Positions 2,423-15,532 of a stretch of 56,812 nt of DNA are shown here, in pieces. The stretch covers positions 10,109 to 66,920 of the forward strand of contig HG799476.1 of the NCBI GenBank assembly GCA_000531095.1, written 5' to 3'. Both the position numbers and the translations under genes were made by a program. A model generated the notes under the pieces. That model saw only the letters and a list, made by a program, of their open reading frames with translations, had not been told where the DNA came from and did no database searches. How positions within the stretch are numbered: position 1 is the first letter of the stretch; the number at the start of each line of letters is the position of its first letter. Source of the DNA: Gemmata massiliana (GTDB lineage Bacteria > Planctomycetota > Planctomycetia > Gemmatales > Gemmataceae).

Positions 2423-2695
2423 GGAAAGAGACTCGTCGAGTGAGAGAGTGGAACTGCCCTGAGATTACGAGTGGGCCGAATCGCGGGCAACACCGAAAGG
2501 ACGCGGTATGCGCGGGCGCCCGCGCCGGGTCGCCAACGCGCACGGCCCGCGCCCGTTATTACGGTAACCCGGAGGGCAGCGATGAACTCAAGTGGAGCGG
2601 GGTGTAAAGCGGTCGCGCGCCGCGGGTATCCTCTCGCGGTGAGGTTGCCCCGGTCGTTCCCTCGTGAACGGCGTTCCTCGTCGCCGGTTCGTGCC

Positions 2696-3412
2696 ATGCC
2701 TCGGCAGCAATTTCGCCACATCCCGGGACTGTTCCTCGACACCGATTACTTCGCGCCGGACCAGTGCTCGCAGCTCGTGCGCCAGTCACTCGCGCTGTAC
2801 GAGCGACTGGAAACCGCAGTCGGTGGTGCGGAAGGCTCGTTGGAGACGGCCCACATTCCGCAACCGGCTTACGTGCGCAGCGCGGAACACAACCTCAAGA
2901 GCGAGGAACACTTCGCGCGCGTCGCCTTGACCGAAGAGGACCAGCGCACGATCCGGTGCGAATATTTCCCGCGGTACGGTGAAGACGGGCACGCGCTCGC
3001 GTACTTCCAGCGCAACGCGAACCTCCCGGATTTCGTCGCACGCGACCTCGTGCCCGGCGTTCACGGGCTGGTCGCGAGCGAGGGGTTCGTGGCGCCCGAC
3101 CGGGAACTGGTGTGGAAGCTCACGATGAACTTCTACCAGCGCGTGAACGGCAAGGTCGCGGGGTTCCCGTTCCACGTCGACATCCCGGCGAACGGCGTCG
3201 TCACGATGATCCTCAACGTCCAGCGCGAGGTGCTGTTCCAGATCGCGAAGGACGACGCGGTGACCGACATCCCGCTCCCGGTCGGCGCGCTGCTCCTGCT
3301 CAGCGGCGAGAGCCGGTACGTGTGGAAGCACCGCGTGCTCCCCGCGGACGCGCCCGTGAGCGGCGGGGGGCACGCGATCGAGCGCGTCTCGCTCGTACTG
3401 GGGTTCCAGTAA
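2696..3412 (+). CDS. 2OG-Fe(II) oxygenase superfamily protein
   Basis: 238 residues from the ATG at 2696. The frame is open further upstream, but that stretch is arginine-rich and unlike protein-coding sequence, so I chose this start even though no strong ribosome site precedes it. The double-stranded beta-helix iron ligands are visible: H-V-D in PFHVDIP (about residues 160-162) and a distal histidine in WKHRVLP (about 211). An arginine in ERVSLVLGF (about 230) is placed to bind the 2-oxoglutarate carboxylate. The spacing resembles AlkB-like or prolyl-hydroxylase-like dioxygenases, but I cannot assign a substrate. It is divergent from the oxidoreductase upstream, with about 270 bases between the starts. 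Confidence 0.72.
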   Translation: MPRQQFRHIPGLFLDTDYFAPDQCSQLVRQSLALYERLETAVGGAEGSLETAHIPQPAYVRSAEHNLKSEEHFARVALTEEDQRTIRCEYFPRYGEDGHALAYFQRNANLPDFVARDLVPGVHGLVASEGFVAPDRELVWKLTMNFYQRVNGKVAGFPFHVDIPANGVVTMILNVQREVLFQIAKDDAVTDIPLPVGALLLLSGESRYVWKHRVLPADAPVSGGGHAIERVSLVLGFQ

Positions 3413-4294: not shown

Positions 4295-5011
4295 TCACGC
4301 TTCCCGAAATAGTTCCCACTCGCCCTCTGTACTCAGCGCTTCGTTCGGGCGGAACCGCGCCTTGTACTCCAGTGACCGGCACCCCTCGACGAAGTAGCCC
4401 AGGTACACGTGTGGCAGGTTCCACTGCGCCGCGGCGCGGATGATCGAGAGCACGTTGAACGTGCCCAGTGACCGGTTCCGCTCGGCCGGGTCGTGGAAGA
4501 AGTAGATCGCCGACAAACCCTCCGGGAAATTGTCCACGTACCCCACGCCGACCAGTTTTTCGCCCAGGTAGTAGCACCACTCCTGCGTGACGAACGGGTT
4601 GTCGACGAACGATTCCGCGAAGTCGCTCGCGTCCTTCGGGCCGTGGTCGGACCAGCCGACGTGTTCGTGTTGGTACGAGTGGAACCGGTCGTAGAGGTCG
4701 AGTTTTTCGTCCGTCACCTCGGGTAGCCCGATCACCAGTTTCACGTCGCCGTCGTTCGCGGCCATGCACCGGCGCTGGGACCGGTCCGGCTTGAACGTCG
4801 CCACCGGTACGCGGAGCGACCGGCACGCGGTACACGCCGGGCACGTCGGCCTGAAGAGCGAGAACCCGAACCGGCGCCAGCCCGCCTTCAATCGCTCCTG
4901 GTACTCAAGGGGGGTGAGTTGTGACACCATCTGGTACGTGAGTGACCACTGCTGGTCCGGCAAGTAGCTGCACGTGCTCGGCGGGGACGTGAAGACGAAC
5001 AATGATTCCAT
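4295..5011 (-). CDS. bpt: aspartate/glutamate leucyltransferase (bacterial ATE homologue)
   Basis: 238 residues from the ATG at 5011 (a GTG two codons earlier is possible; GGGGTGAG precedes). The product belongs to the bacterial N-end-rule transferases. These add leucine from leucyl-tRNA to proteins with N-terminal Asp or Glu and so mark them for ClpAP-type degradation. Hallmarks are the N-terminal PSTCSYLPDQQWSL segment, the CPACTACRSLRVPV cysteine cluster (about residues 60-73), the SxRxxRxxxAN-like region and the C-terminal YLGYFVEGCRSLEYKARFRPNE block. Length and motif order match the family. It acts in the cytoplasm. It stands alone, with its end facing a hairpin repeat. Confidence 0.9.
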   Translation of the reverse strand: MESLFVFTSPPSTCSYLPDQQWSLTYQMVSQLTPLEYQERLKAGWRRFGFSLFRPTCPACTACRSLRVPVATFKPDRSQRRCMAANDGDVKLVIGLPEVTDEKLDLYDRFHSYQHEHVGWSDHGPKDASDFAESFVDNPFVTQEWCYYLGEKLVGVGYVDNFPEGLSAIYFFHDPAERNRSLGTFNVLSIIRAAAQWNLPHVYLGYFVEGCRSLEYKARFRPNEALSTEGEWELFREA

Positions 5012-5176
5012 GCTCACCCCGGTTGGTGATCGCGTTTCGGGTGCGCTGCGTGTTGGGTAACCGAGCCGTTAACGGAACTCGCATCTGCGGACGGGAGAGC
5101 ACTCGACCAACATTGTATCCGCGCAATTGCCGTTCAATCACCGGAGTTCGAGAGCGAAATCCGATTGTCGGGAACC

Positions 5177-5305
5177 TCATACCGAATTGTGCTGGTGAGT
5201 GGTTTTCTGTAGCCGGCCTCTGTGAGGCCGGTGAGCCACAAGCACTGGATATCCCGGCCTCACAGAGGCCGGCTACAGAAGACAATCAAAACGAAACCGT
5301 ATCAC
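5177..5305. repeat. palindromic repeat A, copy 1 (intact)
   Basis: A perfect 27-bp inverted repeat (5205-5231 with 5254-5280; arms contain TTCTGTAGCCGGCCTC) has a 22-base loop. Outer arms are looser: TCATACCGAAT on the left and the complement of a GTGATACGG-type end on the right. A second copy is at 9323-9666. It lies just upstream of the 745-residue gene at 5394 and could affect its 5' leader. Confidence 0.85.
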
Positions 5306-5393: not shown

Positions 5394-7631
5394 ATGTCGT
5401 TCGATCCGCAACTCTCCGTGCGTGCCGCGACCCTTGCGTATTTCGCGGACCGCGCGGAGCGGTTCCCCGGGCTCGTTGCGCGGATCGAAGAGTTCTTCTC
5501 GGCCCCGACGCTCGAAACCGGCCGGCAGGTGCTCCGCGCGTACTTTCGCAATCACAGTACCGGTGATGTGGAGTCGCTCCGGACGATCACGGCGAGTTTC
5601 GCGGACAAGCGCGTGGTGCGCGCGATCGTGGCGTCGATCCTGGCGGACGAAGAGGCACTCGCGGCCATTGCCGCGCGATCGTACCCGCACCCCATCGGGT
5701 TCGACAAACTGGTGCTCGACGACGATCGGGCGACCGGCTTCAAGTTCCGGCTCCACGTGTACTGGCGCGGGGCGAACTTCGCGTCTCTCGAACGGCTCCA
5801 CCTGCACCGGTTCGAGATGGCGTCGGCGATCGTGACCGGCGAACTCACGAACCACATCTGGCGCGTGATCGAGTTCGTGCCCGCGAGCGAACTGGTGCGC
5901 GGTATGGGCCGCTCCCCAACGATCGGGGAACAAGCCCACACTCGGCGCACCATGCCCGCCTACGCGGGCTACCGGCGCGACGCGAACGGCGACCTGCGCA
6001 AGACCCATTTGGGGACCGCGGTCCTCGAACGCGGCGCGTCGGAAACGTTCACTTCCGGCGACGCTTACGCGCAAGTGTTGGAAGACGCACACTTCGTGGA
6101 AACGAACGCGGAGACGGGTTTCGCCAACGGGGATTTCTGCTCCACGGTGTACATTCACGGTCCGTCACTGGTCGACGGGGCCGGGCGCTCGCTCCCGATC
6201 CTGTTCGAGGAAACGCTCCTCCCGGACGACAACAAACTCGTCCCGACGATACCCGCGATCCCGGTGGAAACGCTCCGGGCGTGTCTGAACCGCTACCGCG
6301 ACACGCTCGACGAAATCCTGAAGTTCTACGACTGGCTGTACCACCCCAAGCACGGGCGGAACCTCTCGGTCGGGATGATCGCGGGGTATTTGTTGTGCGA
6401 GGCGTTCAAGACCCCGCACGCGATCGACGCCTTCGAGCGCCGGTACGACGAGTGCAAGGACGTGCTGGAACGGTCCGAGCGCGCGGTGCGGGATCTGATT
6501 GAGGGCCGCACGAACCCGGCGCACCTCAACGACGACGACCGGAACACACGGTACGTTCGCTTGCTGCTCGCGAAAGCGAATTCGTACCCGAAAGGCGCAC
6601 GCATATGGGCGGAGGACTACGGCGCGCTGACGAAGGAGATGTGGCGCTACTTCGGGGCGATTCGCGGTGAGATGAATTCACGCATCACGGTGCTCAAGCC
6701 CGTCTGGGACGGCGTGGTGAAGCGGAAGCTGCCGGGCGGGATGCACTACGGGCACGTCGGGGCGATGATCGAGGCCGCGTTCGAGGCTAACGGGATCGCG
6801 ATGAAACACTTCGAGGCACATTGGGCCGGTGGCGGGCTGGTCGCAACTCACAAGGACGAGCACAACATCGCGAGCGTCGTGGACGACGAGATCGAGGGGC
6901 GCATTAGCGAGGTGCTGAAGGGGCACTTCCCATCGCACCGGTTCTATGGCGAAGAACACGGCGACCCGAACCGCGCGTTACCCGCGGTCGGGGAGCGCCG
7001 GTTCCTGGTCGACCCGCTCGACGGCACGCGCAACTTCCTGTGCCGGCGGGAGGAGTTCTGCATCGCCATTGCGTGTCAGGAGTGGAACGGTGTGGGGTGG
7101 GTGACGACGGACGGTGTGGTCGCGCACCCCGCGTCCGGGCGCATCTTCTGGGCGGAGCGAGGACAGGGAGCGTTCGTCATCGAGCGCACCGACCTCGAGC
7201 GCCGCGCGACCGTGTTCGTGCCCGCGGTCGACCCCGCGAACCCGCTCAAGCACCAGCTCATCGATTATTCCGCACGCGGACTGGATCTGGCCGCGCAAAC
7301 GGACACATTTAGCGAACTCGCACGCAGCGGAGCCGCACTACGCAACAGCGGATCGGTCGCGCTGATTCTGGCGCACATGGCCGGGCGCGGGGGAACGGGC
7401 GCGATCATCACGGCTAACGACTACGACGTGGAGGCCGGCCGGCTGATCGCACACGAGGCCGGTGCGTGGATCACACAAATCGTGTTCGTATCCGGCGAAG
7501 ACGAACGCACCTGTACCATCGTGGGCGCGGAGGAGCGCATTCACAACGCGCTCGTCGTGCTCGTGCGCGAGCAGATCCAGAAGCACGGCGGTCGACTCTT
7601 GGACGAAACGCTCACCCCGCCGGGGCTGTGA
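5394..7631 (+). CDS. two-part protein: N-terminal unknown (cupin-like?) domain and C-terminal inositol monophosphatase domain
   Basis: 745 residues; AGGG precedes the ATG. The last 265 or so residues are an inositol-monophosphatase-superfamily phosphatase. GEEHG (first metal site glutamates), DPLDGTRNF (canonical DPxDGT metal motif) and a late YDVEAG in the position of the WD-AAG motif are all present. IMPase relatives cleave phosphate from inositol phosphates, PAP or sugar phosphates using Mg2+. The first 470 or so residues are not assigned. They contain a HLHRFEMASAIVTGEL segment (about residues 142-157) and a later CSTVYIHGP segment. Together these resemble the metal-binding strands of small cupins such as cysteine dioxygenase, which is inference from pattern only. 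Ordinary IMPases are about 270 residues, so this is a fusion. It appears to stand alone, since its only close same-strand neighbour is an unrelated ankyrin-SUFU gene. Confidence 0.78.
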   Translation: MSFDPQLSVRAATLAYFADRAERFPGLVARIEEFFSAPTLETGRQVLRAYFRNHSTGDVESLRTITASFADKRVVRAIVASILADEEALAAIAARSYPHPIGFDKLVLDDDRATGFKFRLHVYWRGANFASLERLHLHRFEMASAIVTGELTNHIWRVIEFVPASELVRGMGRSPTIGEQAHTRRTMPAYAGYRRDANGDLRKTHLGTAVLERGASETFTSGDAYAQVLEDAHFVETNAETGFANGDFCSTVYIHGPSLVDGAGRSLPILFEETLLPDDNKLVPTIPAIPVETLRACLNRYRDTLDEILKFYDWLYHPKHGRNLSVGMIAGYLLCEAFKTPHAIDAFERRYDECKDVLERSERAVRDLIEGRTNPAHLNDDDRNTRYVRLLLAKANSYPKGARIWAEDYGALTKEMWRYFGAIRGEMNSRITVLKPVWDGVVKRKLPGGMHYGHVGAMIEAAFEANGIAMKHFEAHWAGGGLVATHKDEHNIASVVDDEIEGRISEVLKGHFPSHRFYGEEHGDPNRALPAVGERRFLVDPLDGTRNFLCRREEFCIAIACQEWNGVGWVTTDGVVAHPASGRIFWAERGQGAFVIERTDLERRATVFVPAVDPANPLKHQLIDYSARGLDLAAQTDTFSELARSGAALRNSGSVALILAHMAGRGGTGAIITANDYDVEAGRLIAHEAGAWITQIVFVSGEDERTCTIVGAEERIHNALVVLVREQIQKHGGRLLDETLTPPGL

Positions 7632-7756
7632 GTGCGAAGTGTGGGGCGTCAGCGCAGTCCGCGAGCGAGTGATGAACGCACAAGGCGCGGCTGGTGGGTC
7701 GATCAGGATAAGGCGAGAAAAACAGTGGGAAAATGGTTTTCCACGGAGCCCAAGTG

Positions 7757-8869
7757 ATGAGCCAACTGCCATTCCGTGATTTCTACGATGCGATTAAGAG
7801 GAACGATATTGTCAAACTCCAACAAATTTTGACTGGCCATCCCGGGTTCCTCCAAGAGGATGTGGGGGCCGAGTCGTGGCTTCAGATTGCTGCGAAATAT
7901 GCGGATATCGCAACTGTGGAGTTTTTCGTGCAGGTGGGTCTTGATGTGACCCCGGCACTTGAAGATGCCGTTCTCTACGATCGAGTGGATGTTGCGCGTT
8001 TGCTTCTCGACCACGGGGCCAAGATCCTCACAACCGATGTTGGTTGGGGAGGGGCACCGCTCCTCGCAGTCGCCATAGACTCTGTCAAAATGACACAGTT
8101 GTTGCTTGACCGCGGGGCCGATCCGAATGTTTCGTGGGGTTCTCCGCCGACGAGTGTATTAAGTAAAGCACTTGACCGTGGTCGGACTGCGGTCGCTGAA
8201 CTTCTCCTGGCTCACGGTGCAACCCCCACCGTATCTGCCCCGGAATCACCCGCTACACCGCACGAAGAAATCATTCGCCATTTCGCAGCGAGAATCGGCC
8301 CCGTTGAGCCGCTCAGCATCACGGAGATCGTGCCGGGCGAAGTCGCTGTTTCAGTGCACCTCATTCCGCCCGCACCAGGGCACAAGTACCTGCTTCTCTT
8401 TACGACAGGGATGAGTGATCGCGCGCTCACAGTTCCCGCGGGGCGGGAAGATGACCGGTACGCGGAATTGGTGCTGCTTCTGCCGAGCGATTGGAAACTC
8501 AACCCCGACTCGCTTGCAGATTCAAGAAGTGGGTGGGTAATCGAATGGCTGCGCCGGGCGGCCCATTTCTTCCACGAGCACCGAACGTGGATCGGCCCCG
8601 GGTACGGTATCCTGGCGAACGGGAGCCCACCTCAACTCCTGGCACCGGGCCTGCCTTTCGACAGCTTTCTCCTGTTCCACCCGGAGTCAGGCACCGCTCA
8701 GGTTCGCGTCGCTGATGGACGGGAGATCCGGTTTTACACCGTCTATCCACTACACCCCGATGAGCGGTTCCTTGAAACCCACCAGGGGCCGGCTGCACTC
8801 CTTGAACGACTGGCACCACAAGCCAGCTTCCCCATAATTGATGTTCACCGTCCAAGCGCTGTTGGGTGA
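7757..8869 (+). CDS. ankyrin-repeat protein with suppressor-of-fused domain
   Basis: 370 residues from the ATG at 7757. GGAG lies nine bases upstream, preferred over the in-frame ATG at 7733, which lacks a site. The N-terminal half (about residues 10-165) is ankyrin repeats, seen as repeated LLLDHGA/LLLDRGADPN/LLLAHGATP turns. The C-terminal half matches bacterial suppressor-of-fused (SUFU) domains: LPSDW, WVIEWLRRAAHFFHEHRTWIG, GPG and FYTVYPLHPDE blocks are visible. Bacterial SUFU domains occur in immunity and toxin-related proteins, usually as small cytoplasmic proteins. Codon use here is less GC-biased than its neighbours, hinting at transfer. A hairpin follows the stop. Confidence 0.82.
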   Translation: MSQLPFRDFYDAIKRNDIVKLQQILTGHPGFLQEDVGAESWLQIAAKYADIATVEFFVQVGLDVTPALEDAVLYDRVDVARLLLDHGAKILTTDVGWGGAPLLAVAIDSVKMTQLLLDRGADPNVSWGSPPTSVLSKALDRGRTAVAELLLAHGATPTVSAPESPATPHEEIIRHFAARIGPVEPLSITEIVPGEVAVSVHLIPPAPGHKYLLLFTTGMSDRALTVPAGREDDRYAELVLLLPSDWKLNPDSLADSRSGWVIEWLRRAAHFFHEHRTWIGPGYGILANGSPPQLLAPGLPFDSFLLFHPESGTAQVRVADGREIRFYTVYPLHPDERFLETHQGPAALLERLAPQASFPIIDVHRPSAVG

Positions 8870-14377: not shown

Positions 14378-15532
14378 TCACTCCTCGCGCTTGGCAACCG
14401 TCTGAGCGTACCCTTCTTCGAGTCGGCGGGTCAACTCCGGGAACTTGTCGAACAGGCGCTTCGGTACGCGTTTCTCGGTACGAGTGAGCGCATACGCGGT
14501 CAGGAGAGGGAGTGCGATCGTCGAATCGACGTAACACGTGACCGAGTCCGGCAGTTTGTCGGGGTCGACCTTGCCCCAAGTCATCGCTTCGCTCGGCGTC
14601 GCGCCGCTCAGCCCGCCGGTATCGGGGCGCGCGTCGGTGAACTGTAGGAAGTAGTCGTGCCCGGCCTCGAGCAGCCCGAGCACTTCCTGAATTTGCGGCT
14701 CCGTTTGGAGCATGAAGTTCTTCGGACTTCCGCCCCCGAGGATCAATACTGAACTATTCCCACCCGATGCTTTTGCGTCCCACACGATCGCGGCCGACTG
14801 GTTCACGTCGCGGAGCGGGTCGATTCGGAGCTTACTGCCTTCGAGCATGAGGGCAGCGAGGTTCATGCCGATCGAGCTGTCGCCGGGCGAACTGGTGAAG
14901 ATCGGCACCCCGTGACGGTACGCGGCGGCCAACAGGTTCTTCCCACGGTGCCCGGTTTGGTCCTCACGCTCCGCGAGGTACTTGCCCACGAGGTTGTGGA
15001 ACTCGGCCGTCCCCATTGTCTGCTGGAACGCCTCTCCGCGACAGAGGGTGCGGAAGAATTTGTCCGTTCCGAGCAGGTTCTCGTAGTCGAAAACGATGTC
15101 GTAAATGCGGATGACCTGGTTTTCACGCAGTTCCAGGTCCGGCAGGCTCGGTCCGGCCTGGTACAGGTCCATGCCGAGCGCGTAGTGCGTGTCGTGGTAC
15201 AGGTTCGCGCCGGTCGAAACGATCCAGTCGATGAACCCGGCTTCCACGAGTGGCACCAAGCACGACATCCCGAGTCCGGCCGGCGTGAGGGCGCCCGAGA
15301 GCGCGAGGCCGATCGTGCCGTTGTTCGCGAGCATCTTCCGCACGTACAACTGGCAGCCCTCGCGGAGCCGGCCGCCGTTGTAAGACAAGAACGCGCCGTC
15401 GATGAGATCGGCCGCGCTCGTGCCGCCCGCGACGCCCGCCGGGTCGATCCGCTCGCGGCTGATCTTGTGCAGAAACGCTTTGTTCGCGTCGGTCCCGGCG
15501 TGGCGGTCGTAGTGCGGCTTGTGTGGGTGCAT
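14378..15532 (-). CDS. deoxyhypusine synthase-like protein
   Basis: 384 residues, close to the family length of about 370. The deoxyhypusine-synthase family transfers the aminobutyl group of spermidine, to eIF-5A lysine in eukaryotes/archaea or to small amines in bacterial homologues (family knowledge). Family blocks seen are [35 protein letters not shown], and near the C-terminus [10 protein letters not shown], whose lysine corresponds to the reactive lysine of the enzyme. Bacterial members usually do not modify eIF-5A and may form homospermidine or another polyamine. It precedes the secreted protease with its stop inside that gene's ribosome site. Function in this organism is unknown. Confidence 0.85.

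Follow-up and report, generated by a model that had tools for sequence, protein, structure and literature searches.

The window, the whole stretch of 56,812 nucleotides of the Gemmata massiliana genome (9.27 Mb in 22 contigs) that we analysed, encodes a protein of 745 amino acids that combines a likely cupin domain with an inositol monophosphatase (IMPase) domain (Table 1). The open reading frame starts with M-S-F-D-P, is preceded by the purine-rich GAGGGCGG and contains no internal stop. An earlier note on this DNA had read it as a fusion in a single polypeptide, and the uninterrupted frame, together with nine complete copies in the genus, bears this out. Around the gene we found no promoter-like sites, and terminator-like sites did not exceed the level of shuffled sequence; PADLOC defence models gave no match at E values up to 0.1. 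Upstream, at 5202-5283, lies a 30-nt inverted repeat (97% complementary, 22 nt spacing) that may be a REP-like element, since its 23-nt core has five exact copies in the genome.

Table 1. The fusion gene, its parts and its divergent neighbour (positions in the window)
Feature	Position	Strand	Basis
Fusion ORF, 745 aa (helical - cupin - helical - IMPase)	5394..7631	+	ORF, Pfam, alignment, AlphaFold2
N-terminal helical part, residues 1-95	5394..5678	+	AlphaFold2 helices; no Pfam match
Predicted cupin domain, residues ~96-270	5679..6203	+	hhalign, shuffles, predicted barrel, fold searches
HPIGF motif, H99-F103	5688..5702	+	H99 invariant in 28/28 rows; low-pLDDT stretch of the model
Cupin motif 1, residues 136-151, with G149 and two proposed metal ligands, H136 and H138	5799..5846	+	Invariant in 28/28 rows
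Cupin motif 2, H233 (DAHFVETN), proposed third metal ligand	6090..6092	+	Invariant in 28/28 rows
Helical connector, residues ~291-452, with conserved RITVLKP...RKLPGGMH at its end	6264..6749	+	Low-confidence full-length model; conservation; no Pfam match
IMPase domain (PF00459), residues 459-717; GEE 519-521, DPLDGT 540-545, D678 of YDVEAG	6768..7544	+	Pfam, alignment
Arginyl-tRNA-protein transferase family gene (ATE_N + ATE_C), divergent neighbour	4295..5017	-	

Judged from its sequence, the C-terminal domain is a member of the IMPase superfamily with its metal motifs intact, as had been proposed earlier. PF00459 (Inositol_P) matches it with an E value of 2.4e-28 and 99.9 bits against a cut-off of 27, and SuhB-type inositol-1-monophosphatases head its PDB sequence matches, aligning with it at the GEE, DPLDGT and YDVEAG motifs; E520, E521, D540, D543 and D678 are invariant in all nine complete copies. 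With the full-length AlphaFold2 model, VIA-align retrieved mostly SuhB, IMPase, HisN and CysQ structures, the best at Z 8.4 over 96 residues. The domain and its motifs (GEE, DPLDGT and the late Asp) are thus shared with SuhB/IMPA, HisN and CysQ, all of PF00459. Unlike these enzymes, however, the phosphatase of the window is joined to a cupin, and its divergent sequence falls far below the NCBIfam equivalog cut-offs for HisN (67 of 275 bits), inositol-1-monophosphatase (65 of 332) and CysQ (49 of 229). The host genome encodes three further IMPases, and across the 95 genomes of the family the IMPase matches outside the fusion (E <= 1e-12) are at most 35% identical.

For the N-terminal half, the lack of a familiar family remarked upon earlier held up, as residues 1-452 gave no match in Pfam, NCBIfam or PDB sequence searches. 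Pfam cupin models matched neither the genus proteins nor the window domain at E values up to 10, nor the 18 relatives described below at E values up to 1. The same was true of the Pfam models for cysteine dioxygenase, for RmlC and for the other thiol dioxygenases, so that the profile comparison with the first two families, which the earlier note had recommended, came out empty. A PDB sequence search returned no match for the N-terminal profile and two, at chance level, for a profile of phage and plasmid relatives.

Distribution and gene neighbourhood

The fusion gene occurs in 10 of the 19 genomes of the genus, as a complete ORF in nine of them and split over two contigs in the tenth (G318); the other eight complete copies are 72-98% identical to the protein of the window. 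Matches to residues 1-452 were confined to these ten among the 95 family genomes, and precisely these ten also carry this IMPase subfamily, at 65-100% identity; the remaining 85 have neither (E <= 0.001 for the N-terminal half). In a sample of 397 genomes of the planctomycete class, 26 gave matches to residues 1-452 at E <= 1. Ten of these were clear and all belonged to the genus, while the other 16 covered short segments at E values of 0.017-0.56 and were treated as chance. A phylum sample yielded one match in 294, the host's own genome, and a scan of genome contigs, a method sensitive to close relatives only, found six loci, all planctomycete. Searches of plasmids (E 1e-5) and phages (E 1) with residues 1-452 returned nothing. 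Hence the same architecture, which the earlier note suggested seeking in other Planctomycetes, was found within the genus, and none was clear outside it in the class sample. We saw the fusion in one planctomycete genus only; its parts are of known kinds, and their combination had no precedent in the libraries searched. None of the published titles that we found concerned a cupin-IMPase fusion.

The conserved fused copies, together with dN/dS values below 0.3 in all four segments, argue for a real gene under selection and exclude an artefact. These values, taken from the five pairs printed of the 36 computed, indicate that purifying selection acts on each of the four segments. A joining of two frames during assembly, the possibility raised against the fusion at the outset, is ruled out by the presence of this ORF in independent assemblies.

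The ATE-type transferase gene is the divergent neighbour of the fusion in six of the ten genomes. Nevertheless, the ATE family is present in 18 of the 19 genus genomes, whether or not they carry the fusion, so the adjacency is weak evidence of partnership and the case for the transferase as a functional partner is weakened. Moreover, in a tree that left out G318, the five ATE-adjacent genomes formed one group and the four with other neighbours formed the second; a single event therefore suffices to explain the arrangement.

Conserved neighbours, another check proposed earlier, did not include any metabolic gene. We did not observe a conserved metabolic operon partner in nine loci of 11-18.5 kb each (16 kb in the window), the extent being limited by contig ends, and the only clusters besides the fusion common to at least four of these loci were ATE (five) and a patatin (four). 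About 100 bp downstream of the fusion gene, at 7733-8869, lies a gene for an ankyrin and SUFU protein whose GC3 is 0.59, the fusion gene itself having 0.85. It may have been inserted recently, and none of the eight other neighbourhoods, that of the closest relative (L036) among them, had a gene called as its homologue. Two further genes were noted: a deoxyhypusine-synthase-family protein at 14378-15532, which scores 566 bits against a cut-off of 450 for the NCBIfam 'homospermidine biosynthesis protein', and, at 2471-3412, a protein that the 2OG-Fe(II) oxygenase model PF13532 matches weakly and below its cut-off (E 2.2e-4).

The predicted cupin and its phage and plasmid relatives

The earlier note had described the whole N-terminal half, some 470 residues, as cupin-like. 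This is supported for residues ~96-270, on the grounds of homology to phage and plasmid proteins, a predicted barrel and its fold neighbours; both ends are instead predicted to be helical. The half is thus predicted to consist of three parts, with helices at 1-95 and ~291-450 on either side of the cupin. In the full-length AlphaFold2 model, built on nine close rows, the overall pLDDT is 55.7, and blocks of the N-terminal helices reach 87-92 (residues 11-50) and 91 (residues 81-90). The fold prediction that had been called for returned a cupin barrel for residues 85-290, modelled with 28 rows (pLDDT 67.5, pTM 0.66), and helices at both ends. Within the barrel model, pLDDT blocks range from 68 to 91 at residues 135-244 and from about 47 to 62 at residues 85-134, and are low before and after the core.

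Fold searches with this model point to a likely cupin fold for residues ~96-270. The best Foldseek match in the PDB was a mercaptosuccinate dioxygenase, a weak one (E 2.6e-3, TMq 0.36), and no PDB match reached E <= 0.001. It was followed by ADO, a sugar isomerase, a Pseudomonas thiol dioxygenase, a hydroquinone dioxygenase and JMJD7; cysteine dioxygenase was within the best 50 rows, of which at least one is not a cupin (4xup, a carbohydrate-binding module). VIA-align, in which models that lack a clear match usually get to Z 7-8, gave Z 8.3-10.1 for its best 50 rows, and these are, we presume, nearly all cupin-fold proteins, though few titles say so. Since such scores are spread over many different cupins, no single chemistry is singled out. 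In BFVD, three viral proteins matched at E <= 0.001 (best 2.5e-7), the only titled one being an uncharacterised Caulobacter phage protein.

The homology to phage and plasmid proteins emerged from profile comparison. Permissive tblastn searches with residues 91-289 gave one weak plasmid match (Rhodococcus opacus, E 0.6) and one weak phage match (Sphingomonas phage Carli, E 1.0), and phrog_8313 matched the genus proteins at E 0.047-0.063; these are leads and no evidence by themselves. With hhalign, the genus profile matched the Rhodococcus plasmid protein at E 1.3e-5, and the outward search added a Methylobacterium plasmid protein as well as Pbunavirus ORF11-type and phrog_8313-type proteins. 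Scans of viral contigs found 32 loci with L042 as the query and six with L075, and no relative with A2, P0003 or P0005. Eighteen comparison proteins were then picked by eye for diversity, namely seven of the 32 loci from the L042 scan, all six from the L075 scan, and L042, L075, P0003, P0005 and L041 themselves.

The genus profile (10 rows) matched the profile of these 18 proteins at 96.9% (E 1.4e-10, score 69.8 over 119 columns). As controls, the best of 200 column shuffles scored 25.4 and reversed columns 11.2, and the other segments of the fusion protein scored 13.9, 15.3 and 26.7, the last being the IMPase segment. Most of the signal lies in residues 85-170 (58.8); residues 171-290 alone, which include H233, scored 21.9 (5%), within background. 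Omitting P0003, P0005 and L041 lowered the match to 63% (E 6.8e-5, score 36.3), and the genus profile reached 68% (E 4.8e-5) against the Pbunavirus type alone, 49% (E 1.8e-4) against the phrog_8313 type alone and 16% (E 0.0016) against L041 alone. The Pbunavirus-type and phrog_8313-type groups matched each other at 95.9% (E 5.3e-9). It follows from the subset and segment scores that the homology rests heavily on bridging proteins and on motif 1. At the level of sequence, we consider the homology of residues ~96-270 to these phage and plasmid proteins well supported.

The relatives, which include phrog_4784 and phrog_8313, have in common with the window cupin the His pattern, G149 and H233. Examples are ORF11 of Pseudomonas phage 14-1, the Rhodococcus plasmid protein WP_242324488.1 and WLJ71165.1 of Sphingomonas phage Carli. 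Unlike the fusion, they are stand-alone proteins of roughly 190-220 amino acids without a phosphatase, and they are 18-26% identical to the window domain. Two of them, L041 (2.8e-6) and P0005 (0.0012), match phrog_4786, 'cysteine dioxygenase', and a third does so at 0.041; the genus proteins tested did not match this family. No title among the literature matches listed for phage cupins contained the word 'cupin'.

A stand-alone phrog_8313 protein (E 4.7e-49) is also encoded amid small ORFs of another planctomycete genome (L075:1462-2076), one of the 397 in the class sample, and this stretch is perhaps a prophage. The Rhodococcus and Methylobacterium plasmids (L039:1998-4545 and L041:1501-4054) have a common gene layout around the small cupin. 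In both, its gene is overlapped by that of a protein of about 300 amino acids (22% identical over 168 residues, pairwise E 2.4e-4), and a recombinase gene (33% identical) lies about 400 bp downstream; this plasmid stretch gave no PADLOC match.

The H-x-H-R-F...G-E-L pattern that first suggested a cupin corresponds to residues 136-151 (HLHRFEMASAIVTGEL), and its H136, H138, R139, F140, G149, E150 and L151 are indeed invariant in all nine complete copies. Over the 28-row alignment (10 rows from the genus, 18 from outside), H99, H136, H138, R139, G149 and H233 are invariant; once the plasmid proteins and phage Carli were added, the His and Gly residues were kept and R139 was lost. A test for the cupin motifs found H-x-H...G and the His of motif 2, and no Glu at the classical position of motif 1. 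At what we take to be this position, the genus has Met and the relatives shown have other hydrophobic residues, which suggests a three-His metal centre. A Glu ligand is conceivable all the same, since E141, which lies three residues beyond H138, does not vary among the genus proteins, although it does outside the genus. On the residue pattern, a three-His metal site is probable.

Possible functions of the fusion protein

Our leading, still tentative, reading is a single-chain bifunctional enzyme in which an oxygenase-like metal cupin and a Mg2+-dependent phosphatase act on one metabolite. In the cupin, H136, H138 and H233 would coordinate a single divalent metal ion, probably Fe(II), and the domain would carry out metal-assisted chemistry on a small molecule, most likely an O2-dependent oxidation. 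The IMPase domain would hydrolyse a phosphate monoester by a two-metal (Mg2+) mechanism involving E520/E521, D540, D543 and D678. The helical segments 1-95 and ~291-452 would cap and connect the two domains, and the fusion would hold two steps of what may be a shared pathway together. The two-step conversion of a phosphorylated compound, proposed in the earlier note, is plausible. The data themselves establish the fusion, its conservation, the IMPase motifs and the kinship of the cupin with a wider family, whereas the metal, the oxygenase chemistry and the shared pathway are inferred. Points that count against this reading are the weak Foldseek values, the moderate quality of the domain model, the want of any Pfam cupin match or conserved metabolic neighbour, and the three further IMPases of the genome. 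Thiol dioxygenases (cysteine, 3-mercaptopropionate, mercaptosuccinate and ADO/PCO), which lead the Foldseek PDB rows, are cupins with H-x-H plus a late His, and the window cupin has a similar pattern. On the other hand, visual inspection of the window cupin did not reveal the Ser-His-Tyr triad of cysteine dioxygenase, and the domain also differs from these enzymes in being joined to a phosphatase and in matching none of their Pfam models.

It is conceivable, if rather doubtful, that the phosphatase is the sole catalyst, regulated or placed by the cupin and the helical segments, which would bind a ligand or a partner. CENP-C cupin domains, which are binding domains, are among the VIA-align rows (Z 9.6-10.0), and large helical segments flank the cupin on both sides; yet even distant phage proteins keep the three cupin His residues and H99 without exception, as one expects of a metal site. 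We regard it as unlikely that the cupin is a sugar or sugar-phosphate isomerase akin to D-lyxose or phosphomannose isomerase, with the IMPase domain supplying a coupled dephosphorylation. An isomerase and a phosphatase are a sensible pairing, 3kmh ('novel sugar isomerase') and the D-lyxose isomerases 7nzo, 7nzp and 7nzq appear in the Foldseek top 20, a phosphomannose isomerase reached Z 8.4 in VIA-align, and E141 is invariant in the genus. However, the D-lyxose isomerase type has a His-His-Glu-His centre with Glu five residues after the second His, where the window has A143; Glu occurs there in L044, L046 and L080, and other residues in most relatives.

That the cupin likeness is due to chance and the N-terminal half has another fold seems improbable to us. 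The empty Pfam, NCBIfam and PDB sequence searches, the modest model confidence and the concentration of the profile signal in residues 85-170 would agree with it, but the profile comparison, the shuffles and the fold searches all point to cupins. Least credible of all is an N-degron-like pathway in which the cupin would oxidise N-terminal cysteines as the partner of the divergent ATE-type transferase. Plant cysteine oxidases reportedly enable arginylation (PMC5376641), which counts for this reading, as do the thiol dioxygenases among the fold matches and the frequent ATE adjacency. It would, however, leave the IMPase domain without a role, and both the presence of ATE irrespective of the fusion and the restriction of the adjacency to one tree group speak against it.

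Returning to the bifunctional enzyme, a more far-reaching version, about which we have clear reservations, would be a genus-specific oxygenase-phosphatase. In it a three-His cupin, belonging to a family not yet described and perhaps taken over from a phage, would be combined with a divergent IMPase and two new helical modules to perform an undescribed metabolic step. If our analysis is right, it delineates a scattered family of small phage and plasmid cupins for which no Pfam model gave a match here. The permanent tie to a phosphatase in one bacterial genus would then be the first functional handle on these proteins, and the substrate of the fusion, once found, would hint at the role of the phage proteins.
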